A stretch of 64,000 nt of DNA from Micromonospora halophytica (GTDB taxonomy: Bacteria; Actinomycetota; Actinomycetes; Mycobacteriales; Micromonosporaceae): positions 62,001 through 126,000 of the forward strand of contig NZ_FMDN01000011.1 of the NCBI RefSeq assembly GCF_900090245.1, given 5' to 3'. How positions within the stretch are numbered: the first letter of the stretch is position 1; the number at the start of each line of letters is the position of its first letter. A program made the position numbers and the translations under genes. Of the stretch, positions 2,240 to 12,429 are shown in pieces. Under the pieces are notes generated by a model, which worked only from the letters and a program-made list of their open reading frames with translations, was not told the origin of the DNA and ran no database searches.

Positions 2240-3271
2240 GTGGCACGGATCGCGGTGGTGGCCGGGGACGGGATCGGACCCGAGGTGGTCGGGCAGGCCC
2301 GCAAGGTCCTCGACGCCGTGCTCCCCGGGATCGAGGCCACCGAGTACGACCTCGGCGCCGCGCGCTACCACCGCACCGGCGAGGTGCTGCCCGACTCGGT
2401 GCTGACCGAGCTGGCCGGGCACGACGCCATCCTGCTCGGCGCGGTCGGCGACCCGAGCGTCCCGCCGGGCGTGCTGGAGCGCGGCCTGCTGCTCAAGCTC
2501 CGCTTCGCCTTCGACCAGTACGTCAACCTGCGCCCGTCCCGGCTCTGGCCGGGCGTGCCGGGCCCGCTGGCCACCGTCAAGCCGGGCGAGGTCGATCTGG
2601 TGGTGGTCCGGGAGGGCACCGAGGGGCTGTACGCCGGCGCCGGTGGCTCGCTGCACCGCGACACCCCCGCCGAGGTCGCCACCGAGGAGAGCCTGAACAC
2701 CCGGCACGGGGTGGAGCGGGTCGTCCGCGACGCCTTCGCCCGGGCCGCCCGCCGGGAACGGCGCAAGGTCACCCTGGTGCACAAGACCAACGTGCTGACC
2801 CACGCCGGGTCGCTCTGGGCGCGCGCCTTCGAGGCGGTGGCCGCCGAGCACCCCGACGTGGCCACCGAGTACCAGCACGTCGACGCCGCCGCGATGTTCC
2901 TGGTCACCCAGCCCCAGCGGTACGACGTGGTGGTCACCGACAACCTGTTCGGCGACATCCTGACCGACATCGCCGCCGCCGTCACCGGCGGCATCGGGCT
3001 GGCCGCCAGCGGCTGCATCAACCCCTCCGGGGCGTACCCGTCGATGTTCGAGCCGGTGCACGGCTCGGCGCCGGACATCGCGGGCAAGGGCCTGGCCGAC
3101 CCGGTGGCCGCGGTGCTCTCCGCCGCCCTCCTGCTCGACCAGCTCGGCCACGCCGACGCCGCCGCCCGGGTGACCGCCGCGGTCGGCGCCGAGCTGGCCA
3201 ACCGCACCCCGGGCGTACCCCTGCGCACCGAGGAGGTCGGCGACCGGCTCGCCGGTTACGCCGTAGCCTGA
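2240..3271 (+). CDS. leuB: 3-isopropylmalate dehydrogenase
   Basis: LeuB oxidises and decarboxylates 3-isopropylmalate with NAD in leucine synthesis, and 3-methylmalate in the citramalate route to isoleucine. The 343-residue protein begins [20 protein letters not shown], the classical start of beta-decarboxylating dehydrogenases. It continues with [11 protein letters not shown], the substrate Arg segment [28 protein letters not shown], the catalytic Lys in LVHKTNVLT, and the metal-binding [17 protein letters not shown]. The nucleotide-binding end reads [19 protein letters not shown]. The GTG at 2240 follows AGGAG by 6 nt; an in-frame extension upstream exists but lacks family similarity. It is followed by ilvE on the same strand after a terminator. 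Confidence 0.95.
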
Positions 3272-3306
3272 CCGGGCGCCGCGTCGCCCGCCTCCACCGG
3301 CCCACC

Positions 3307-3329
3307 GCCCGGGTCCGCCGGACCCGGGC
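3307..3329 (+). terminator. Hairpin terminator after leuB
   Basis: Perfect 10-bp stem GCCCGGGTCC/GGACCCGGGC with a 3-nt loop, 35 nt after the leuB stop. Confidence 0.65.
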
Positions 3330-3506
3330 CGGGCCGGACTGCTCCCCGCCGTCGTCGGTGTCGACGCCCCGCGCCGCATCCCATCGGGTGTGCTCGTTCC
3401 GCCGGGCGCAGCTATCCGCTGAACGACCGTTCGGGGTAAGTTTCTGGCACCAGTGATGTCGGTGTGCGGCCCCGTACGCCGTTCAACCCTCAGGGAGGTC
3501 AGCGCG

Positions 3507-4604
3507 ATGAGCGGTGGTGACAAGCTCGATTTCGAGATCCGTCCGAATCCCGCCCCGGTATCCGCCGCCGACCGGGCCGCGCTGCTGGCCAACCCGGGTT
3601 TCGGCCGGGTCTTCACCGACCACATGGTCACCATCCGCTACGCCGAGGGCAAGGGCTGGTACGACGCCCGCGTCGAGGCCCGCGCGCCGATCCCGATGGA
3701 CCCGGCGAGCGCCGTCCTGCACTACGCGCAGGAGATCTTCGAGGGGCTGAAGGCGTACCGGACCGCCGACGGCGCGGTCACCATGTTCCGTCCGGAGGCG
3801 AACGCCGCCCGGTTCGTCGCCTCCGCCAGGCGGCTGGCCATGCCGGAGCTGCCGGAGGAGACGTTCGTCGAGTCGCTGCGCCGGATCGTCGAGATCGACC
3901 GGGAGTGGATCCCGGAGGGCCCGGACGCCAGCCTCTACCTGCGGCCGTTCATGTTCGCCAGCGAGGTCTTCCTCGGCGTGCGCCCGGCCAACGAGTACCT
4001 CTACTGCGTCATCGCCTCGCCGGCCGGGGCGTACTTCGCCGGTGGGGTCAAGCCGGTGACGGTCTGGGTCAGCCCGGACTACACCCGCGCCGCCCCCGGC
4101 GGCACCGGCGCGGCGAAGTGCGGCGGCAACTACGCCGCCTCGCTGGCCGCGCAGGCCGAGGCGATCGAGGCCGGCTGCGACCAGGTGGTCTTCCTCGACG
4201 CGGTGGAGCGCCGCTTCGTCGACGAGCTGGGCGGCATGAACGTCTTCTTCGTCTACGAGGACAACACCCTGGTCACCCCGCCGCTGACCGGCACGATCCT
4301 GCCGGGCATCACCCGCGACGCCGTCCTGTCCCTGGCTGCCGCCTCCGGGCACCGGGTCGAGGAGCGGCCGGTCAGCTTCGCCGACTGGCAGGCCGACGCG
4401 GCCAGTGGCCGGCTGCGGGAGGTCTTCGCCTGCGGCACCGCGGCAGTGATCACCCCGATCGGCCGGGTGCGTTTCCCCGACGGGGAGTTCCTGATCGGCG
4501 GGGGTGAGCCGGGTCGCTCCACGATGGCCCTGCGCGAGCAACTGGTGGCGATCCAGCGCGGCGAGGCCGAGGACCCGCACGGCTGGGTGCGCCGCGTCTG
4601 CTGA
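3507..4604 (+). CDS. ilvE: Branched-chain amino acid aminotransferase
   Basis: This class IV PLP aminotransferase makes leucine, isoleucine and valine from their 2-oxo acids with glutamate. It is 365 residues, the usual length for the actinobacterial type. Visible family segments are DHMVTIRYAEGKGWYDARV, LHYAQEIFEGLKAYR, FRPEANAARF, RPFMFASEVFLGVRP, and the PLP-lysine region GTGAAKCGGNYAASL. Later come MNVFFV and TGTILPGITRDAVL, then GRLREVFACGTAAVITPIG. The ATG at 3507 is preceded by GGGAGG at 8 nt spacing; upstream in-frame ATG/GTG codons are less likely. A TAAGTT box at 3437-3442 may be the promoter. It partners leuB, cimA and leuCD in branched-chain synthesis. Confidence 0.95.
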   Translation: MSGGDKLDFEIRPNPAPVSAADRAALLANPGFGRVFTDHMVTIRYAEGKGWYDARVEARAPIPMDPASAVLHYAQEIFEGLKAYRTADGAVTMFRPEANAARFVASARRLAMPELPEETFVESLRRIVEIDREWIPEGPDASLYLRPFMFASEVFLGVRPANEYLYCVIASPAGAYFAGGVKPVTVWVSPDYTRAAPGGTGAAKCGGNYAASLAAQAEAIEAGCDQVVFLDAVERRFVDELGGMNVFFVYEDNTLVTPPLTGTILPGITRDAVLSLAAASGHRVEERPVSFADWQADAASGRLREVFACGTAAVITPIGRVRFPDGEFLIGGGEPGRSTMALREQLVAIQRGEAEDPHGWVRRVC

Positions 4605-4617
4605 TCCGCCGACTGCC

Positions 4618-4656
4618 GACCGCCGGCCCGCCGCTGCCGCGGCGTGGCCGGCGGTC
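4618..4656. terminator. Hairpin between convergent ilvE and phosphatase genes
   Basis: An 11-bp stem GACCGCCGGCC/GGCCGGCGGTC sits just after ilvE and can serve both converging genes. Confidence 0.6.
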
Positions 4657-4719
4657 GCCGTTTCGGACCCTGGAGGTCGCCGGGCGCCCCGGCCAGATCG
4701 CGGGAGGGCGGGCCGTCAG

Positions 4720-5457
4720 TTACTCCAGCAGGTGGTCGCGTAGCGCGGCGAGCTGGGCGTCGGTCAGTCCGGCGTGCCGCAGGTAGTCCTCCACCGAGCC
4801 GTGCCGGTGACGCAGCTCGGTGAGGAAGAGCGTCATCGCCTCGGCGGGGGTGGTGAGCGGGGGCAGCCCGGGCCGGACCTGCTTGCCGGTGGAGTTGAAC
4901 CAGGTCTGGAACCGTTCGGCGGCCTCGGTGCTGAGCGCGTAGTCGGCGGCGATCTCGGTGTCGGGGACCCCGAGCACCGCCAGGGTGAGCCCGCAGACGA
5001 TGCCGGTGCGGTCCTTGCCCGCGACGCAGTGCACCAGAACCGGGGCGGCGGTCTCGTCGGCGATCAGCCCGACCGCCTCGCCCAGCCCGGTCGCGCCGGT
5101 CTCGGCCAGGTCGGCGTACCGGTCGGCCAGGTAGCGGGCGAGGTCGGTGCCCTGCCGGTACGGGTTCTCGCCCCAGTCGGCGTGCTCCGGGTGGATGTTG
5201 CGGTACGCCAGCCCGTCGAACTCGGGCACCCGGCCGTCCCGCTCCACCTCGGAGGGTCGGCGTAGGTCGATGACGGTCCGGACGCCGAGGGCGGCGAACG
5301 CCTCCCGGTCGGCGCCGTCGAGACGGTGCGGGGAGTCCGAGCGGTAGAGCCGGCCCCTGCGCACGGCGCGGCCGTCGCGGGCGGGGTGTCCGCCCACCTC
5401 TCGGAAGTTGAACATGACGGAGAAGGGAACGCGGCGGTTGACCTGTGTGTCGTCCAC
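4720..5457 (-). CDS. Tyrosine-protein phosphatase (Y_phosphatase3 family)
   Basis: A 245-residue soluble phosphatase of the MptpB/LMO type, which removes phosphate from tyrosine, other protein residues or phosphoinositides. It has the N-terminal NFREVGG and RLYRSDSPHRL segments, a VRTVIDLRRPSEVERDG segment, and the active-site loop VHCVAGKDRTGIVCGL with catalytic Cys and Arg (CX5R, with the Lys-Asp pair typical of this family). The C-terminus contains HGSVEDYLRHAGLT. The GTG at 5457 has no Shine-Dalgarno but lies 7 nt from a TACCGT box, so it is probably leaderless. A start at 5490 would place the start inside the terminator hairpin of the upstream gene. Its physiological substrate is not evident from neighbours. 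Confidence 0.85.
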   Translation of the reverse strand: MDDTQVNRRVPFSVMFNFREVGGHPARDGRAVRRGRLYRSDSPHRLDGADREAFAALGVRTVIDLRRPSEVERDGRVPEFDGLAYRNIHPEHADWGENPYRQGTDLARYLADRYADLAETGATGLGEAVGLIADETAAPVLVHCVAGKDRTGIVCGLTLAVLGVPDTEIAADYALSTEAAERFQTWFNSTGKQVRPGLPPLTTPAEAMTLFLTELRHRHGSVEDYLRHAGLTDAQLAALRDHLLE

Positions 5458-5463
5458 TCGGAC

Positions 5464-5469
5464 ACGGTA
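5464..5469 (-). promoter_or_regulatory. Leaderless -10 box for the phosphatase gene
   Basis: TACCGT on the minus strand ends 7 nt before the GTG at 5457, placing the transcription start at the start codon. Confidence 0.5.
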
Positions 5470-5470
5470 A

Positions 5471-5496
5471 CGGCCGGCGGGTTTCCCCACCGGCCG
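5471..5496 (-). terminator. Hairpin after the PRC-barrel gene
   Basis: CGGCCGG/CCGGCCG arms with an inner GGG/CCC pairing, 17 nt past the stop of the PRC-barrel gene on the minus strand. Confidence 0.5.
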
Positions 5497-5512
5497 TCGA
5501 GGTCCGTGCCGC

Positions 5513-5971
5513 TCAGCGCGCGGTGCCCGGGGGCACGTTGCCGTACGTCTCGTCGTAGTAGCCGCCCAGCGTGTCCCGGTACGACGGGTCGCTGTGGCTG
5601 GTCTCGTCGTACTCCGGCGCGGCCTTGATCTGGTCCTTGCCGCGGTCCACGTAGACCTTCCTGTCGTCGTGGTCCACCTGGTTCACGGTGCCGGCCGGCA
5701 GCATGACCTTCTTGCCGAAGATCCACGGGCCGGTGTCGACGACCAGGTAGCTGCCGCCGACCTCGTGGCTCGCGCTGTCGATCTTGCCGATGCCGCCGTC
5801 GGTGGCCTCGACCTTGTAGCCGACCAGGTCGGCGTCGACCACCCCGGCCTCGTCGCGGTAGCGCCAGGGGTTGAAGGCGCCGGCGGGGGCGCCGCCGGCG
5901 ACGCTGCCCTGACCGCCGTCGATCATCGGGTCGGTGCTGCCGTACGTGGCGTGCGGGTCGAGCCTGTCCAT
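5513..5971 (-). CDS. PRC-barrel domain protein
   Basis: A 152-residue protein whose middle part (about residues 35-110) is a PRC barrel, a beta-barrel found in photosynthetic reaction-centre H subunits and in the ribosome-maturation protein RimM. The segment GYKVEATDGGIGKIDSASH followed by SYLVVDTGPWIFGKKVMLP is the typical adaptor fold. The flanks are hydrophilic, ending in HSDPSYRDTLGGYYDETYG. The ATG follows AGGAG by 6 nt. Such small PRC proteins are common in actinobacteria, where several are stress-linked, but the role of this one is not known. It has its own terminator and no operon partner. Confidence 0.8.
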   Translation of the reverse strand: MDRLDPHATYGSTDPMIDGGQGSVAGGAPAGAFNPWRYRDEAGVVDADLVGYKVEATDGGIGKIDSASHEVGGSYLVVDTGPWIFGKKVMLPAGTVNQVDHDDRKVYVDRGKDQIKAAPEYDETSHSDPSYRDTLGGYYDETYGNVPPGTAR

Positions 5972-6083
5972 GGGGAACTCCTGCCCCGACTGTCGTAGTC
6001 GTATCGGAGGAAAAGTGCTTCGTGTCCACGGATGGGGTACCCGGACCCGCCGCCCTCCACACTCGGTGACCGGAAACGACGAC

Positions 6084-6113
6084 GGGCCGGTACCGCGGTC
6101 GCGGTACCGGCCC
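6084..6113 (-). terminator. Terminator of the ahpC-ahpD operon
   Basis: Perfect 13-bp stem GGGCCGGTACCGC/GCGGTACCGGCCC with a 4-nt loop, about 20 nt beyond the ahpD stop on the minus strand. Confidence 0.75.
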
Positions 6114-6130
6114 GGTGCCGAGTGTCCGGC

Positions 6131-6661
6131 TCAGACCAGGGCGGCCTGCGCGTCGAGCGCCACCGCGGCGGCGTGCACGACGGCGGCGATGCGCAGCCCC
6201 TCGTGCACCTGCTCGCGGGTGAACCCGGCGCCGCGCAGGGCCTTCTCGTGCGACTCCAGGCAGACGCCACAGCCGGTGATGGCCGAGACGGCGAGGCACC
6301 AGAGTTCGAAGTCACCCTTGTCCACGCCCGGCCTGGCGATGATCTGCATCCGCAGCCGGGCCGGCATCGAGGCGTACTGCTCGTCGCCGATGAGGTGCTT
6401 GGCCCGGTAGTAGACGTTGTTCATCGCCATGATCGTGGCGGCGCCCTTGGCGGCCTCGACGGCCTCCGGCGACAGGTGGGTCGAGGCCTCGTCGGCGATC
6501 TCCCTCAGCACCACCGGGTTACGTGCGGCGACCGCGCAGGCCAGGGCGGTGCCCCAGGCCTGCTCGGGCTTGAGCGTCGAGGTGCCGACGGTGGAGCCGA
6601 GGTTGAGCTTGATGTCCTTGGCGTACTCGGGCAGCGTCGCCTTGACCGCGTCCAGACCCAT
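6131..6661 (-). CDS. ahpD: Alkyl hydroperoxide reductase AhpD (carboxymuconolactone decarboxylase fold)
   Basis: AhpD regenerates the peroxiredoxin AhpC in actinobacteria, taking electrons through dihydrolipoamide. The 176-residue protein carries the redox motif GCGVCLESH, giving Cys131, Cys134 and His138, the catalytic set of mycobacterial AhpD (which also uses a nearby Glu). The preceding MNNVYYRAKHLIGDE segment is characteristic. It starts one base after the ahpC stop (TGACATG), so the two are one operon and probably translationally coupled. Length is normal for the family. Confidence 0.95.
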   Translation of the reverse strand: MGLDAVKATLPEYAKDIKLNLGSTVGTSTLKPEQAWGTALACAVAARNPVVLREIADEASTHLSPEAVEAAKGAATIMAMNNVYYRAKHLIGDEQYASMPARLRMQIIARPGVDKGDFELWCLAVSAITGCGVCLESHEKALRGAGFTREQVHEGLRIAAVVHAAAVALDAQAALV

Positions 6662-6662
6662 G

Positions 6663-7223
6663 TCAGGCGCCGGCGCCGGCGAGCAGGGCGTTGGCGTCGA
6701 GGGTGGCGCCGCCCTTGTTCCAGTTGCACGGGCAGAGCTCGTCGGTCTGCAGCGCGTCCAGCACCCGCAGCACCTCGGAGACGTTCCGGCCGACGGAGCC
6801 GGCGGTGACCATGGCGAACTGGATCTCGTTGTCCGGGTCGACGATGAAGGTGGCCCGCTGCGCCACGCCGTCGTCGCCCAGCACGCCGCAGGCGGCGCTC
6901 AGCTCACGCTTGATGTCGCTGAGCATCGGGAAGGGCAGCTCGCGCAGGTCCGGGTGGTCCTTGCGCCAGGCGTAGTGCACGAACTCGTTGTCCACCGAGA
7001 CGCCGAGCACCTGGGCGTCGCGGTCGGCGAACTCACCGTTGAGGCGGCCGAACTCGGCGATCTCCGTCGGGCAGATGAAGGTGAAGTCCTTCGGCCAGAA
7101 GAAGACGACGCGCCACTTGCCCTCGTGGGACTTGTGGTGGAGCGTCTCGAACGCCTTGTCGGCGTCGAGCGAGACGCACGCGGTGAGTTCGTACTCGGGA
7201 AAGCGGTCACCGACAGTGAGCAC
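6663..7223 (-). CDS. ahpC: Alkyl hydroperoxide reductase AhpC (peroxiredoxin)
   Basis: A two-cysteine peroxiredoxin of 186 residues that reduces H2O2, organic peroxides and peroxynitrite. The peroxidatic Cys51 is in DFTFICPTEI and the resolving cysteines Cys164/Cys166 are in ELCPCNW, as in the mycobacterial AhpC that pairs with AhpD. The GTG at 7223 follows AAGGAGG closely. In many actinobacteria oxyR is divergent from ahpC; here the divergent neighbour is the cimA leader, and no oxyR is present in the window, so control must come from elsewhere. Confidence 0.95.
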   Translation of the reverse strand: MLTVGDRFPEYELTACVSLDADKAFETLHHKSHEGKWRVVFFWPKDFTFICPTEIAEFGRLNGEFADRDAQVLGVSVDNEFVHYAWRKDHPDLRELPFPMLSDIKRELSAACGVLGDDGVAQRATFIVDPDNEIQFAMVTAGSVGRNVSEVLRVLDALQTDELCPCNWNKGGATLDANALLAGAGA

Positions 7224-7439
7224 GGGTCCTCCTTGACTGCGGCACGAGGGCCGGTAACTGGATCGGTTCCAGATACTTCCGCAGCGAAGTTTCCTGCTGG
7301 TGGCGGCCGGGTGACTTGTGAAGTCGATCACCGCCGGCGGGTTCTGCCCGAGGAGCTGCGGTGAATCTGTTATGAACACTCAACGTCACCATCCCGACAT
7401 GTGGATTATGCCTCCCAGAAGTCGGTCGGGAGTGGCAGA

Positions 7440-7481
7440 GTGGCCACCGTGAGCAGCACCGTCCTGATTATTGGCACGTAG
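7440..7481 (+). CDS. cimA leader peptide (attenuator peptide)
   Basis: A 13-codon frame reads MATVSSTVLIIGT and stops at TAG. It starts with GTG 7 nt after GGGAG, and a second in-frame GTG is at 7449. The run Val-Leu-Ile-Ile near its end, using two ATT codons that are rare in this genome, is what is expected of a branched-chain attenuator: ribosome stalling for lack of charged tRNA-Ile/Leu/Val would change RNA folding before the terminator at 7512-7541. It lies 92 nt upstream of cimA on the same strand. The peptide itself likely has no other function. Confidence 0.75.
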   Translation: MATVSSTVLIIGT

Positions 7482-7511
7482 CGCGCCGGCCTCCCCTCCG
7501 CCGAGCGCGCA

Positions 7512-7541
7512 GACCTCCCGCACCCCGCGGGGGGTCTTTTT
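7512..7541 (+). terminator. Attenuator terminator before cimA
   Basis: A 10-bp stem GACCTCCCGC/GCGGGGGGTC (one G-U pair) with a 5-nt loop is followed directly by five Ts. This is the only canonical U-tract terminator noted in the window and it lies inside the cimA leader, not after a gene. The pyrimidine-rich CCTCCCCTCC stretch at about 7490-7500 could pair with the G-rich 3' arm as antiterminator. Confidence 0.8.
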
Positions 7542-7573
7542 GTTGCTCCCCGGCCCGTGAAGAAGGGACTCCC

Positions 7574-9157
7574 ATGACGTTCCAGGTGTACGACACCACG
7601 CTGCGCGACGGCGCCCAGCGTGAGGGGCTCAGCTACTCGGTGGTCGACAAGCTGGCCGTGGCCCGGCTCCTCGACGAGCTGGGGGTGGGCTTCATCGAGG
7701 GCGGGTGGCCCGGCGCGGTCCCGAAGGACACCGAGTTCTTCCGCCGGGCGCGTACCGAGCTGGACCTGAAGCACGCCGTGCTGGTCGCCTTCGGGGCCAC
7801 CCGGCGGGCCAACGTGGCCGTGCAGGACGACCCGCAGGTGCGGGGCCTGCTCGACGCCGAGACCCCGGCGGTCGCGCTGGTCGCCAAGGCGGACATCCGG
7901 CACGTCGAGCGCGCGCTGCGCACCACCGGCGCGGAGAACCTGGCCATGATCCGGGACACGGTGGCGTACCTGGTCGCGCAGGGCCGGCGGGTCTTCGTCG
8001 ACGGCGAGCACTTCTTCGACGGGTGGCGGCACGATCCGGTGTACACCGCCTCGGTGGTGCAGGCCGCGCTCGGTGCGGGGGCCGAGCGGTTCGTGCTCTG
8101 CGACACCAACGGCGGGATGCTGCCGTCGCAGGTGACGGCGGCCATCGCCGACCTCACCGCACGCACCGGCGTCGCGCCGGAGCTGCTCGGCATCCACTGC
8201 CAGAACGACACCGCCTGCGCGGTGGCCAACACGATCGCCGCCGTCGAGGCCGGGGTCCGGCACGTCCAGGGCACCGCCAACGGGTACGGCGAGCGCCCCG
8301 GCAACGCCGACATCTTCGCGGTCGTCGCCAACCTCCAGCTCAAGCTCGGCATGCCCGTCCTACCGGATGGCTGCCTGGAACAGATGGTGCGGGTCTCGCA
8401 CGCCATCGCCGAGATCGCCAACATCGCCCCCGACACCCACCAGGCGTACGTCGGGGCTGCGGCCTTCGCCCACAAGGCGGGGCTGCACGCGAGCGCGATC
8501 AAGGTCGACCCGTTGCTCTACAACCACGTGGACCCGTCGGTGGTGGGCAACGACATGCGGATCCTCGTCACCGAGATGGCCGGCCGGGCCAGCGTCGAGC
8601 TCAAGAGCCGCGAGCTCGGCCTGGACCTGGCCGGCCATCCGGAGGCGTTGTCGAAGGTGACCAGCCGGGTCAAGGAGCTGGAGGCGGGCGGGTGGTCGTT
8701 CGAGGCCGCTGACGCCTCGTTCGAGCTGCTGGTCCGCTCCGAACTGCCGGACGCCGCGCCGACGCGGCCGTTCGCGCTGGAGTCGTACCGGGTGCTGGTC
8801 GAGCACCGGGAGGACGGCGCGGTGGTCTCCGAGGCCACCGTGAAGATCCGGGTACGCGGGGAGCGGGTGATCGCCACCGCCGAGGGCAACGGCCCGATCA
8901 ACGCCCTCGACGAGGCGCTGCGGGTCGGGCTGTCCCGGCACTACCCGGAGCTGCGCGACTTCGAGCTGGCCGACTACAAGGTCCGGATCCTGGAGGGCAG
9001 CCACGGCACCGGCGCGGTGACCCGGGTGCTGGTGGAGACCGCCGACGGCACCGGCCGGGACTGGACCACCGTCGGGGTGCACCCCAACGTGGTCGAGGCG
9101 TCCTGGCACGCTCTCGTCGACGCGCTCACCTACGGCCTGGACCGCGCCCGGGTCTGA
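7574..9157 (+). CDS. cimA: (R)-citramalate synthase
   Basis: CimA condenses pyruvate and acetyl-CoA to citramalate, the first step of a threonine-independent route to 2-oxobutyrate and isoleucine. The 527-residue protein has the HMG-CoA-lyase-like barrel, beginning VYDTTLRDGAQREGLSYSV, with FVLCDTNGGMLP, LLGIHCQNDTACAVAN and the signature GTANGYGERPGNADI. HKAGLHASAIKVDP follows, and a C-terminal LeuA-type allosteric domain spans about residues 390-527. The GYGERPGN pattern and the long form fit CimA better than 2-isopropylmalate synthase, but substrate choice cannot be proved by eye. The start follows a GAAGAAGGGA stretch. Regulation is likely by the upstream leader-peptide attenuator. Confidence 0.9.
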   Translation: MTFQVYDTTLRDGAQREGLSYSVVDKLAVARLLDELGVGFIEGGWPGAVPKDTEFFRRARTELDLKHAVLVAFGATRRANVAVQDDPQVRGLLDAETPAVALVAKADIRHVERALRTTGAENLAMIRDTVAYLVAQGRRVFVDGEHFFDGWRHDPVYTASVVQAALGAGAERFVLCDTNGGMLPSQVTAAIADLTARTGVAPELLGIHCQNDTACAVANTIAAVEAGVRHVQGTANGYGERPGNADIFAVVANLQLKLGMPVLPDGCLEQMVRVSHAIAEIANIAPDTHQAYVGAAAFAHKAGLHASAIKVDPLLYNHVDPSVVGNDMRILVTEMAGRASVELKSRELGLDLAGHPEALSKVTSRVKELEAGGWSFEAADASFELLVRSELPDAAPTRPFALESYRVLVEHREDGAVVSEATVKIRVRGERVIATAEGNGPINALDEALRVGLSRHYPELRDFELADYKVRILEGSHGTGAVTRVLVETADGTGRDWTTVGVHPNVVEASWHALVDALTYGLDRARV

Positions 9158-9176
9158 CCGTCGCAGGTGACGCGGT

Positions 9177-10160
9177 TCAGGCGGCCGGGAGGCGCAGTTC
9201 GGCGAGGACCGCCCGGTGGTCGCTGCCCGGCACCGGGTGCACGTCGACGGTGCGGACGGCGATCCGCCGGTCGACCAGCACATGGTCGATGGTGACCGGC
9301 GGGACCGGGCCGCCGTCGTACGGCCCCCAGGTGCCGGCCAGCCCCGCCCCGGCGGCGTCGGCCGCGTCCACGTACCCGCTGTCCAGCAGCGCCCGCAGCG
9401 GGGCGTGGTCGAGGGTGGCGTTGAAGTCCCCGGCGAGGACGCTCAGCGGCCCGTCCGGGGTGGCGCGCGGCTGCGCCCGCAGGTCGGTGAACCATTCGTC
9501 GACCACCTCGACGCCGTACGGGGCGGCCGGATGCGCCGACTCGACCCGCAGCGGTGCCGCGCCGGGGACCGCCACCCGCGCGTACGCCTGGGTGAACGCC
9601 ATGCCGGCGTTGCGCCGGAAACCGCCGTCGGAGAGCGGGTGGCGTGCGTAGAGCCCCGAGCCGGTGGTGCCGACCTCCGGGTTGAGCTGCCGGTGGGGGA
9701 GCAGCTCGGACAGCCCCTGCCGGTCCAGTTCGGCCTGCGCCTGCGGGGTGAACTCCTGCACGGCGAGCACGTCCACCCGGTGCCGGCGGACCAGGTCGAC
9801 CAGGGTGCGGGCGTCCGCGCCGCCCTTGAGCAGGTTGGCGGTGAGCAGCCGCAGCACCGGTCCGTCCACGTCCGGCTGCCCGGAGGCGAGGGCCCGGGGC
9901 GCCACCGTGCCGACCAGCGTCAGCGTCACCAGTGCCGCGACCACCGCCGGCCCGCGACGCCGCAGGGCGAGCGCCAGCCCGAGCGGCACCAGGCTCCCGA
10001 CCGCGACGTACGGGGTGAAGGCCAGCGCCTGCACCAGGGGGCCGCGTTCCAGCCCGGCCAGGCGTACCACCGCCCAGGCGAGGCCGGGTACGACCGCCAG
10101 CCAGCAGAGCAGCATGGTCCACGAGTGCTGCGTACGCGGTGGCGCGACGGTGTCGATCAT
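9177..10160 (-). CDS. Membrane-anchored endonuclease/exonuclease/phosphatase family protein
   Basis: A 327-residue protein with three or four hydrophobic segments in the first 110 residues (MLLCWLAVVPGLAWAVV, LAFTPYVAVGSLVPLGLALAL, VVAALVTLTLVGTVAP). They are followed by an exported DNase I-like domain. The catalytic landmarks of that fold are visible: LLTANLLKGGAD, VDVLAVQEFTP, VLAGDFNATLDH and the final GSDHRAVLAEL. Members act on nucleic acids, phospholipids or sugar phosphates; the substrate here is unknown. The ATG is 8 nt from a TAGCCT box, implying a leaderless transcript. It is divergent from the moxR cluster and convergent with cimA. Confidence 0.85.
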   Translation of the reverse strand: MIDTVAPPRTQHSWTMLLCWLAVVPGLAWAVVRLAGLERGPLVQALAFTPYVAVGSLVPLGLALALRRRGPAVVAALVTLTLVGTVAPRALASGQPDVDGPVLRLLTANLLKGGADARTLVDLVRRHRVDVLAVQEFTPQAQAELDRQGLSELLPHRQLNPEVGTTGSGLYARHPLSDGGFRRNAGMAFTQAYARVAVPGAAPLRVESAHPAAPYGVEVVDEWFTDLRAQPRATPDGPLSVLAGDFNATLDHAPLRALLDSGYVDAADAAGAGLAGTWGPYDGGPVPPVTIDHVLVDRRIAVRTVDVHPVPGSDHRAVLAELRLPAA

Positions 10161-10167
10161 GGTGCTC

Positions 10168-10173
10168 AGGCTA
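10168..10173 (-). promoter_or_regulatory. Leaderless -10 box for the endonuclease/phosphatase-fold gene
   Basis: TAGCCT on the minus strand ends 8 nt before the ATG at 10160. Confidence 0.5.
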
Positions 10174-10378
10174 GCCGTCGGCCTGTCGCGCGGTGGCCCG
10201 CCACACCGTCTCGTGAACGGCGCGGGTGATCGGCACGGAACCCCCGTCGACGTGCCGACGGGTCGGGACCGTCGCTCTGTCGGCTGTGGTGCCGCTCGTC
10301 CCGGATAGGCCCGGAGAAGCGCCGTCCGGCCCGGAAATTCCGACGTTTGTCGGGCCGGTGGCCCGGGAAGCAAGCACC

Positions 10379-11428
10379 GTGACGGACATCTCGGACACCC
10401 TGGCCAGCCTGCCCACCCCGGCCGAACCCGATCCGGCGGGCATCGAGCTGGAACAGACCCTCTTCGAGGTCAAACGTGTGATCGTCGGGCAGGATCGGCT
10501 CGTCGACCGCCTGCTCACCGCACTGGTCGCCGACGGGCACTGCCTGCTGGAGGGCGTGCCCGGCGTGGCCAAGACGCTCGCCGCGCAGACCCTCGCCACG
10601 GTGGTCGGCGGGACGTTCTCGCGGATTCAGTTCACCCCCGACCTGGTCCCCTCCGACATCGTCGGCACCCGCATCTACCGGGCGTCGAAGGAGAGCTTCG
10701 ACGTCGAGCTGGGCCCGATCATGGCCAACCTCGTGCTGGCCGACGAGATCAACCGAGCCCCGGCCAAGGTGCAGTCCGCGCTGCTGGAGGCGATGGCCGA
10801 GCGGCAGGTCTCGATCGGTGGTCGGAGCTGGCCGGTGCCGGAACCCTTCCTGGTGCTCGCCACCCAGAACCCGATCGAGTCCGAGGGGGTGTACCAGCTG
10901 CCCGAGGCGCAGCGGGACCGCTTCCTCATGAAGATCGTCGTGGACTACCCGGACGACGCCGACGAACTGGCGATCCTCTACCGGATGAGCGTCGAGAAGC
11001 CCCGGGCCCGGCAGGTGCTCGACCCGGTACGCCTGCGCGACCTGCAACAGCGCGCCGCCCGCGTCTTCGTCCACCACGCCATCGCCGAGTACGTCGTCCG
11101 GCTCATCCTCGCCACCCGCGACCCGGGTCGCTTCGGGCTGCCCGAGATCGCGCCGCTGCTGGCGTACGGGGCGAGCCCCCGGGCCACCCTCGGCCTGGTC
11201 GCCGCCGCCCGCGCCCAGGCGCTGCTGCGCGGCCGGGAGTACGTGCTCCCCGAGGACGTCCGGGACCTCGCCGTGGACGTCCTCGCCCACCGGCTGGTGC
11301 TCTCCTTCGACGCGGTCGCGGACGGGGTCGCCGCCGAGGCGCTGGTGCACCGGCTCGTCCAGGCCGTGCCACCACCCGTGCTCGCCACCGGGCAGCCCGA
11401 GCACGCACCCGACCTGGCGGCGGCATGA
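10379..11428 (+). CDS. MoxR-type AAA+ ATPase
   Basis: MoxR ATPases act as chaperones that insert metals or assemble complexes together with VWA-domain proteins. The 349-residue protein has Walker A as EGVPGVAKT, Walker B as LVLADEINRAP, sensor 1 in LVLATQNPIESEGVYQLPEAQRDRF and a C-terminal lid with ASPRATLGL. The GTG at 10379 gives the usual length; an earlier in-frame start at 10226 would add a weakly conserved extension. It overlaps the next gene by ATGA and heads a four-gene cluster (MoxR, DUF58, VWA, protease), the standard arrangement for this system. Confidence 0.92.
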   Translation: MTDISDTLASLPTPAEPDPAGIELEQTLFEVKRVIVGQDRLVDRLLTALVADGHCLLEGVPGVAKTLAAQTLATVVGGTFSRIQFTPDLVPSDIVGTRIYRASKESFDVELGPIMANLVLADEINRAPAKVQSALLEAMAERQVSIGGRSWPVPEPFLVLATQNPIESEGVYQLPEAQRDRFLMKIVVDYPDDADELAILYRMSVEKPRARQVLDPVRLRDLQQRAARVFVHHAIAEYVVRLILATRDPGRFGLPEIAPLLAYGASPRATLGLVAAARAQALLRGREYVLPEDVRDLAVDVLAHRLVLSFDAVADGVAAEALVHRLVQAVPPPVLATGQPEHAPDLAAA

Positions 11429-12429
11429 GGCGGGTCGCCGCCCGGCCACCGGCCGACCCGGGACTGGCCGACCTCGCCCCCGGCCAGCGACTGCGCCGAC
11501 TGGAGCTGACCGTGACCCGACGCCTGGACGGCCTGCTCCAGGGACAGCATCGTGGGCTGCTGCCCGGGCCGGGCAGCGAGATCGCCGGCAGCCGGGAGTA
11601 CCGGCCCGGTGAGGACGAGGTACGCCGGATGGACTGGGCGGTGACCGCCCGCACGGGCGTGCCGCACGTGCGTGAGGTCGACGCCGACCGGGAACTCACC
11701 ACCTGGCTGCTGGTGGACGCCAGCCCCAGCATGGAGTTCGGCACCGCGGAGCTGGACAAGCGGGAGCTGTCGGTGGCCGCCGTCGCCGCGGTCGGCTTCC
11801 TCACCGCCGGGGCGGGCAACCGGCTCGGCGCCCAGGTGCTCGGCCCTTCCGGGCTGCGTCGCTTCCCGGCGCGCGGTGGGCGTACCCACCTGCTGAGCCT
11901 GCTCCGGGCGCTGCTGGCGGCCCCGCGCTCCGGCGGGCACGACGCCGCCGGCCACCCGCCGGAGCCGCCCGACCTGGGCGCGGCGCTCGCCGCGACGCAG
12001 CGGGTCGCCACCCGGCGCGGCCTGGTCGTGGTGGTCTCCGACTTCCTCGACGGGCTGCCCGAGCATCCCGACGACCCGGCTCCCTGGGAGCCGGCGCTGC
12101 GCCGGCTCGCGGCCCGCCACCAGGTGCTCGCGGTGGAGATCACCGACCCCCGCGAGCTGGAGCTGCCGGACGTCGGCCTGATCACCCTGGTCGACCCGGA
12201 GACCGGCCGGCGGCGTGAGGTCTGGACCGGCGATGCGGTCCTGCGCCGGCGCTACGCCGACGCCGCCGCCGTGCAGCGCGACCAGGTACGCCGGGCGCTG
12301 CGCCGGTGCGCGGCGGCCCACCTGCCGCTGCGGACCGACCGGGACTGGACCGCCGACATCGTGCGCCACGTGCACGCCCAGCGTCGCCTCGCGGCGGCGC
12401 CCGCGGCGGCCCGGGGAGGTGTGGCGTGA
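11425..12429 (+). CDS. DUF58 domain protein (VWA-like partner of MoxR)
   Basis: A 334-residue protein with the DUF58 signature GSREYRPGEDEVRRMDW (about residues 53-70) followed by a VWA-like fold with a MIDAS-type WLLVDASPSMEFG. Further along is VVVVSDFLDG. DUF58 proteins are thought to be client adaptors for MoxR ATPases; no reaction is known. It starts inside the stop of the moxR gene (ATGA) and ends inside the start of the next (GTGA), so the three genes are tightly coupled. No membrane segment is visible. Confidence 0.9.
   Translation: MRRVAARPPADPGLADLAPGQRLRRLELTVTRRLDGLLQGQHRGLLPGPGSEIAGSREYRPGEDEVRRMDWAVTARTGVPHVREVDADRELTTWLLVDASPSMEFGTAELDKRELSVAAVAAVGFLTAGAGNRLGAQVLGPSGLRRFPARGGRTHLLSLLRALLAAPRSGGHDAAGHPPEPPDLGAALAATQRVATRRGLVVVVSDFLDGLPEHPDDPAPWEPALRRLAARHQVLAVEITDPRELELPDVGLITLVDPETGRRREVWTGDAVLRRRYADAAAVQRDQVRRALRRCAAAHLPLRTDRDWTADIVRHVHAQRRLAAAPAAARGGVA

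Follow-up and report, generated by a model that had tools for sequence, protein, structure and literature searches.

A predicted isoleucine-sensing, ribosome-mediated transcription attenuator upstream of cimA in Micromonospora and related actinobacteria

Leader-peptide attenuation, including leaderless and branched-chain examples, is known in actinobacteria (PMC1262725, PMC8079986, PMC10272879, PMC11857589, PMC13236596). In the Corynebacterium ilvBNC leader (the ilvB-II motif; PMC10272879, PMC11857589), a short ORF with branched-chain codons starts no more than 1 nt from the transcript start and is accompanied by two neighbouring hairpins, the second being a U-tract terminator, with antiterminator and terminator bases adjacent. 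We describe here a candidate element with this general plan upstream of cimA. However, the Corynebacterium terminator and antiterminator share the bases GCC and an extra antiantiterminator hairpin overlaps the ORF, whereas the two hairpins of the cimA leader (A and T) share no base and hairpin A begins at the stop codon. Nor does the element fall within ilvB-II as defined by ilvB downstream and the GCC overlap, since its gene is cimA, its codon is Ile and there is no overlap. The M. tuberculosis ilvB1NC leader (PMC13236596) offers a likeness in mechanism, as its antiterminator is hidden when the ribosome stands on the stop codon and exposed when it stands on the regulatory codons; that system concerns ilvB1, has LVVI codons and a 166-nt leader and is experimentally supported, whereas the cimA attenuator is predicted. 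The Streptomyces leaders IlvL, LeuL and TrpL (PMC8079986; PMC1262725) are likewise leaderless ORFs with pathway codons, some with U-tract terminators. The list of eight leader peptides in S. lividans is without cimA, although Streptomyces-type cimA genes do carry the element. Finally, the LEU element of actinobacterial leuA (PMC1262725) also has a leader peptide with product codons, but its architecture differs from that of the cimA leader, as it lacks a terminator and has a pseudoknot linked to the ribosome site of leuA.

The window analysed here is a stretch of 64,000 nt from Micromonospora halophytica, and the features of its cimA leader are collected in Table 1. The downstream gene scores 608 bits against the citramalate synthase model (curated cut-off 450). 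A leader of 10 codons runs from GTG 7449 to the stop TAG at 7479-7481, and 8 nt separate the end of its second ATT from hairpin A, whose 5' end is the last base of that stop codon. In hairpin A, 7481-7490 pairs with 7500-7503 and 7505-7510, and the spacing to hairpin T is 0 nt. For the 126-nt leader the predicted folding energy is -61.6 kcal/mol, lower than in shuffled sequence (z -3.2). An earlier sequence-only reading had described a short ORF with ATT ATT followed by a strong G/C hairpin and T7537-T7541 ahead of cimA, and all of this is present. That reading had overlooked hairpin A, which stands immediately before the terminator.

Table 1. Predicted features of the cimA leader region, in window coordinates
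Feature	Position	Strand	Basis
Extended -10 promoter element TGG-CAGAGT	7433..7441	+	conserved columns, genus alignment
Leader ORF GTG..TAG, MSSTVLIIGT, predicted leaderless	7449..7481	+	start conserved, 61/61 genus genomes
ATT ATT, two Ile codons, putative sensor	7467..7472	+	Ile conservation, ATT rarity
Hairpin A	7481..7510	+	fold; pair counts, 29 diverse sequences
Intrinsic terminator hairpin T, 11 bp	7511..7537	+	fold; pairing across 29 sequences
Terminator U-tract	7538..7541	+	sequence; conserved TTTTGTT
AAGGGA, probable Shine-Dalgarno of cimA	7563..7568	+	sequence
cimA, citramalate synthase, putatively regulated gene	7574..9157	+	TIGR00977

The terminator had also been singled out as the only one with a U-tract. 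It is indeed unique within 3000-12000, yet such a match by itself is not beyond chance, as two overlapping matches were found there against 1.6 +/- 1.4 expected. Because the U-tract hairpin alone does not exceed chance here, the case rests on comparison and conservation. The same weakness would suit a reading in which nothing is regulated and a chance ORF happens to adjoin an ordinary terminator that simply ends an antisense or upstream transcript, the more so as the next upstream gene (a peroxiredoxin) is on the other strand. Against it stand the conservation, the codon specificity and the gene association set out below, which refute it as far as sequence can, and we give it a negligible probability. 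Membership of a T-box, riboswitch or other curated RNA family was not found either: within 7380-7620 no Rfam model reached its gathering score, and the highest-scoring one gave 21.7 bits where 58.8 were required.

Conservation around the -10 element suggests how the leader is started. Among 59 aligned genus sequences, its columns T, G, G, A, A and T are 100% conserved and the others 93-98%. Counted from the start, positions -16 to -8 (TGGCAGAGT) are 93-100% conserved and positions -7 to -2 only 46-75%. Leaderless transcripts characteristically show just this, a conserved -10 element near the start and a spacer free to vary in sequence, and leader peptides have been mapped as leaderless in S. 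lividans (PMC8079986). In the window GTG 7449 lies 7 nt 3' of TGG-CAGAGT. More widely, 78 of the 80 elements carry NANNNT at a distance of 5-9 nt upstream of an in-frame start, compared to 12% at random places (P ~1e-68). Thus the pattern expected of leaderless leader peptides, a -10 element 6-8 nt before the start and no ribosome site, is what we observed, and judging from the alignment the leader mRNA is probably leaderless, with its transcript start at or near GTG 7449. This differs from the sequence-only reading, which had placed the start at GTG 7440 behind a proper ribosome site. A GTG is found at 7440 in only 30 of the 61 Micromonospora genomes, while a start at 7449 or one codon later (GTG, once ATG; later in two genomes) is present in all 61. 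The supposed ribosome site, GGGAG at 7428-7432, is not conserved and, lying 5' of the -10 element, probably falls outside the transcript. Further upstream, at 7393-7418, a block TCCCGACATGTGGATTATGCCTCCCA shows strong conservation among Micromonospora, with several columns at 90-100%, and may be a -35 region or a protein site; its core has two more matches in the same genome, on contig C26 (up to 3 mismatches). Two peroxide-defence genes, presumably AhpD-like and AhpC-like by their sequences, occupy 6131-7222 on the minus strand; since they diverge from cimA, both promoters must lie within 7222-7449.

The element is closely tied to cimA. A search of 101 related genomes gave cimA homologues in 100, with some weak matches in a few genomes that may be leuA relatives. 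The element precedes cimA in all 61 Micromonospora genomes examined and at 19 of 28 usable loci from other families of the order; one further upstream region (L075), taken at the wrong place, was left out of the comparison. All nine cimA loci without the element (L069, L072, L074, L080, L085-L089) have the end of leuB directly upstream, so that the element goes with cimA genes that come first in their transcript. Several of these leuB-cimA genomes instead have a covariance-model match before ilvB at the head of the cluster, with a Val/Leu leader. The association was also recovered with a DNA pattern that is blind to the gene, TAGCGCGC-N5..25-GCGCGCAGACCTCCC, scanned against one genome per species (84,980 species in the scan set). 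At least 120 matches were obtained, and among the matches listed 116 have cimA no more than 400 nt downstream. For the other four of the 120 listed, the fetched DNA stops 76-222 nt away, before the downstream gene can be read. Within the M. halophytica genome itself, the covariance model gives a strong match only at the cimA leader (1.9e-25; next 0.03). A conserved short upstream ORF with codons for the amino acid of the operon is therefore found at this locus, as is a conserved intrinsic terminator between ORF and gene (7511-7537 and its U-tract), both of which characterise leader-peptide attenuators. Taken together, the comparison supports the leader, its Ile codons, hairpins A and T, their geometry and the link to cimA, and the leader-peptide attenuation of cimA that had been proposed is strongly supported as a prediction by this comparative evidence.

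What amino acid would the leader sense? Conservation of the leader codons had been named beforehand as a test that could refute attenuation, and the codons are kept: among the 120 pattern matches listed, Ile stands at the third codon before the stop in 111 and at the fourth in 103. Leu at the fifth codon (49/120) and Val at the sixth (25/120) are far from constant. The two ATT codons had been called rare, which is correct, since 30 Micromonospora cimA genes together have 455 Ile codons and just 1 of them is ATT; it is nevertheless the usual Ile codon of the cimA leader in the genus. With all but a few exceptions, the Ile codon in diverse cimA leaders ends exactly 8 nt before hairpin A. Four leaders (L028, L043, L065, L070) have Ile one codon earlier and Leu or Val at the 8-nt place. 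A response to any branched-chain amino acid (Ile, Leu or Val), the signal originally suggested, would agree with the V, L, I and I of the window peptide and with the mixture of V, L and I in ilvB leaders of the same layout. However, Ile alone is constant in cimA leaders while Leu and Val vary freely, so the broader signal is not borne out and we regard it as quite improbable.

We then consider the two hairpins. When 29 diverse leaders were aligned, hairpin T was 96.5% paired and hairpin A 80%, the upper part of A being variable and the alignment there loose; several pairs in the two hairpins are changed on both sides. In L044 the stop codon is TGA in place of TAG and the pair changes to match, from G-C to A-U in A, and because stop and pairing base change together, hairpin A can be said to begin on the last base of the stop codon. 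At three non-Micromonospora cimA loci (L081, L084, L090), and also in Streptomyces-type leaders, A includes the stop codon, and the spacing between Ile and A is kept. In the Streptomyces-type cimA leaders (L096-L102, L104-L106, L108), A is also much longer, at ~70 nt, and GCGCGC closes it. Hairpin T abuts A with no base between them in most cimA leaders, and in some distant lineages the gap is 2-5 nt. Some automatically assigned A/T boundaries were wrong (e.g. L063, L065-L067, L082, L083, L100, L104-L106, L129), and these were read by eye.

A classical trp-type attenuator would have an antiterminator sharing bases with the terminator, but A and T share none, and a search for antiterminator pairing with either arm of T found none beyond shuffles (5' arm z +1.2; 3' arm z -0.3); a candidate using the 5' arm of T is weaker than chance. 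Another candidate, in which hairpin A gains two further pairs reaching into T past a bulged A of the UAG, can be drawn in many cimA leaders. It is not general, because it is impossible in the window (ACG before TAG) and in Streptomyces-type leaders. The sequence-only reading had proposed one specific fold, and on this basis the element would be a classical three-hairpin attenuator whose antiterminator is formed between the G run in the 3' arm of T and CCTCCCC (7490-7496), the C-rich loop of A. Such an 8-bp helix (-17 kcal/mol) can indeed be drawn in the window, Micromonospora leaders commonly have a C-rich loop, and there is a precedent in the pairing of the P1 loop with the right shoulder of P2 in the Corynebacterium ilvB-II motif (PMC10272879). 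Nevertheless, when this check was run the pairing did not exceed that of dinucleotide shuffles (z -0.33 in the window, mean z -0.04 over the genus) and was less stable than T itself (-23.8 kcal/mol). Other families lack the C-rich loop, and loops of theirs such as TCGTC (L077) and ACACTT (L063) cannot pair in this way, yet A and T are kept. We therefore consider a three-hairpin attenuator unlikely.

The same layout is found at other genes of the phylum. A model built from the cimA leaders has matches in 102 of 396 genomes, and the downstream genes other than cimA are mostly ilvB-like (ilvB being identified by the conserved sequence TGAQALIRSLE... and TIGR00118), with some leuA, leuS and leuB-like dehydrogenase genes. 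The codons before A follow the gene: Val, Leu and Ile at ilvB, Leu at leuA (L103, L157, L163, L164) and leuS (L161, L173, L200), and Ile at the leuB-like dehydrogenase (L143, L144, L151, L158). Since the model has no insert between A and T, its matches outside cimA are biased to flush hairpins, and for this reason ilvB leaders were also collected by protein homology alone. Among those with a terminator, from across the order, the gap between A and T is 0-1 nt in 27 of 29, compared to 17% in shuffles (P ~3e-19). Hairpin A was counted in this test at -15 kcal/mol or below, and the script that finds it may favour near stems, which the shuffle control addresses. M. halophytica has such an ilvB leader of its own (L321 1135-1170), MSSIRSLRVLT*, with Val-Leu codons and predicted to be leaderless. 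A TTGACT/CAGGCT promoter lies 7 nt before its ATG, A starts on the last base of TGA and T is flush behind A. The whole element (L321 1135-1222) lies on contig C18 at ~56630, 5.4 kb before the window. The leuA gene of the same genome (L324, reverse strand) has the leader MWRAYLLLGRRDEA* with three Leu codons upstream; no U-tract terminator was seen beside this leader.

We consider it likely that the element is an isoleucine-sensing, ribosome-mediated transcription attenuator of cimA, a reading that comes from comparative sequence analysis. For its operation we infer a leaderless start, stalling, premature termination and an opposition of A to T. RNA polymerase would start at or next to GTG 7449, and a 70S ribosome would begin directly at the mRNA 5' end. 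A ribosome covers ~12 nt beyond the first base of its A-site codon. With ample Ile-tRNA, the ribosome would pass ATT ATT, reach TAG and mask ~12 nt beyond, the whole 5' arm of A; with A masked, T would fold fully and transcription would end near 7541. When Ile-tRNA is short, the ribosome would stall on ATT, A would form, T would not close and cimA would be transcribed. The position of A relative to the stop codon and the first ATT thus makes its structure dependent on ribosome position, by geometry. As a ribosome on the stop codon covers the 5' arm of A and one on the first ATT leaves A free, A would be the structure of the starved cell and must then work against T for control to make sense. 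Such a course has precedents in the ilvB leaders of C. glutamicum (PMC11857589) and M. tuberculosis (PMC13236596; a total ribosome footprint of 26 nt is used there), where a ribosome stalled by starvation frees the antiterminator. On the other hand, changing the regulatory codons of the S. coelicolor ilvB leader is cited as having had no effect (Craster et al. 1999, as related in PMC1262725), which is counter-evidence.

How A would oppose T is less straightforward. The folding probability of T is ~0.99 with A free, with A covered or in the full leader, so that no switch follows from thermodynamics by itself. With A and T adjacent yet without a base in common, the opposition would be steric: the foot of T would have to close inside the RNA exit channel and would be prevented from doing so by the directly attached A. 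Termination is reported to need closure of the last 2-3 bp of the terminator, which a ribosome near the foot prevents (PMC4824070), and in the C. glutamicum ilvB leader the hairpins abut and compete for three boundary bases (PMC11857589). This putative steric blocking is the step most likely to be wrong. The thermodynamic compatibility of A and T would equally suit a role for A as a pause or synchronising hairpin, or as a booster of T, with a terminator that is constitutive or senses translation in general and not Ile, and adjacent double hairpins do occur at ordinary terminators (PMC8355165). That reading, however, leaves unexplained the fixed Ile codons with their rare ATT spelling as well as the change of codons with the downstream gene, and we think it has a rather low probability. 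As for the preferred isoleucine attenuator, its extension to a phylum-wide class at cimA, ilvB, leuA and leuS, in which A would form from the stop codon, flush with T and not overlapping it, and block T sterically, is put forward tentatively and may well not hold.

To conclude, neither an attenuator at cimA nor the flush arrangement of A and T as a general rule was found reported in the open-access full-text literature searched. If our reading is true, isoleucine-tRNA would directly control the citramalate entry to isoleucine in a large group of actinobacteria that produce antibiotics. Moreover, actinobacterial leader peptides with terminators have been reported without a visible antiterminator (PMC1262725), and an answer to this puzzle would be offered by two hairpins that stand flush without overlapping, an arrangement retained across the order at two unrelated loci.
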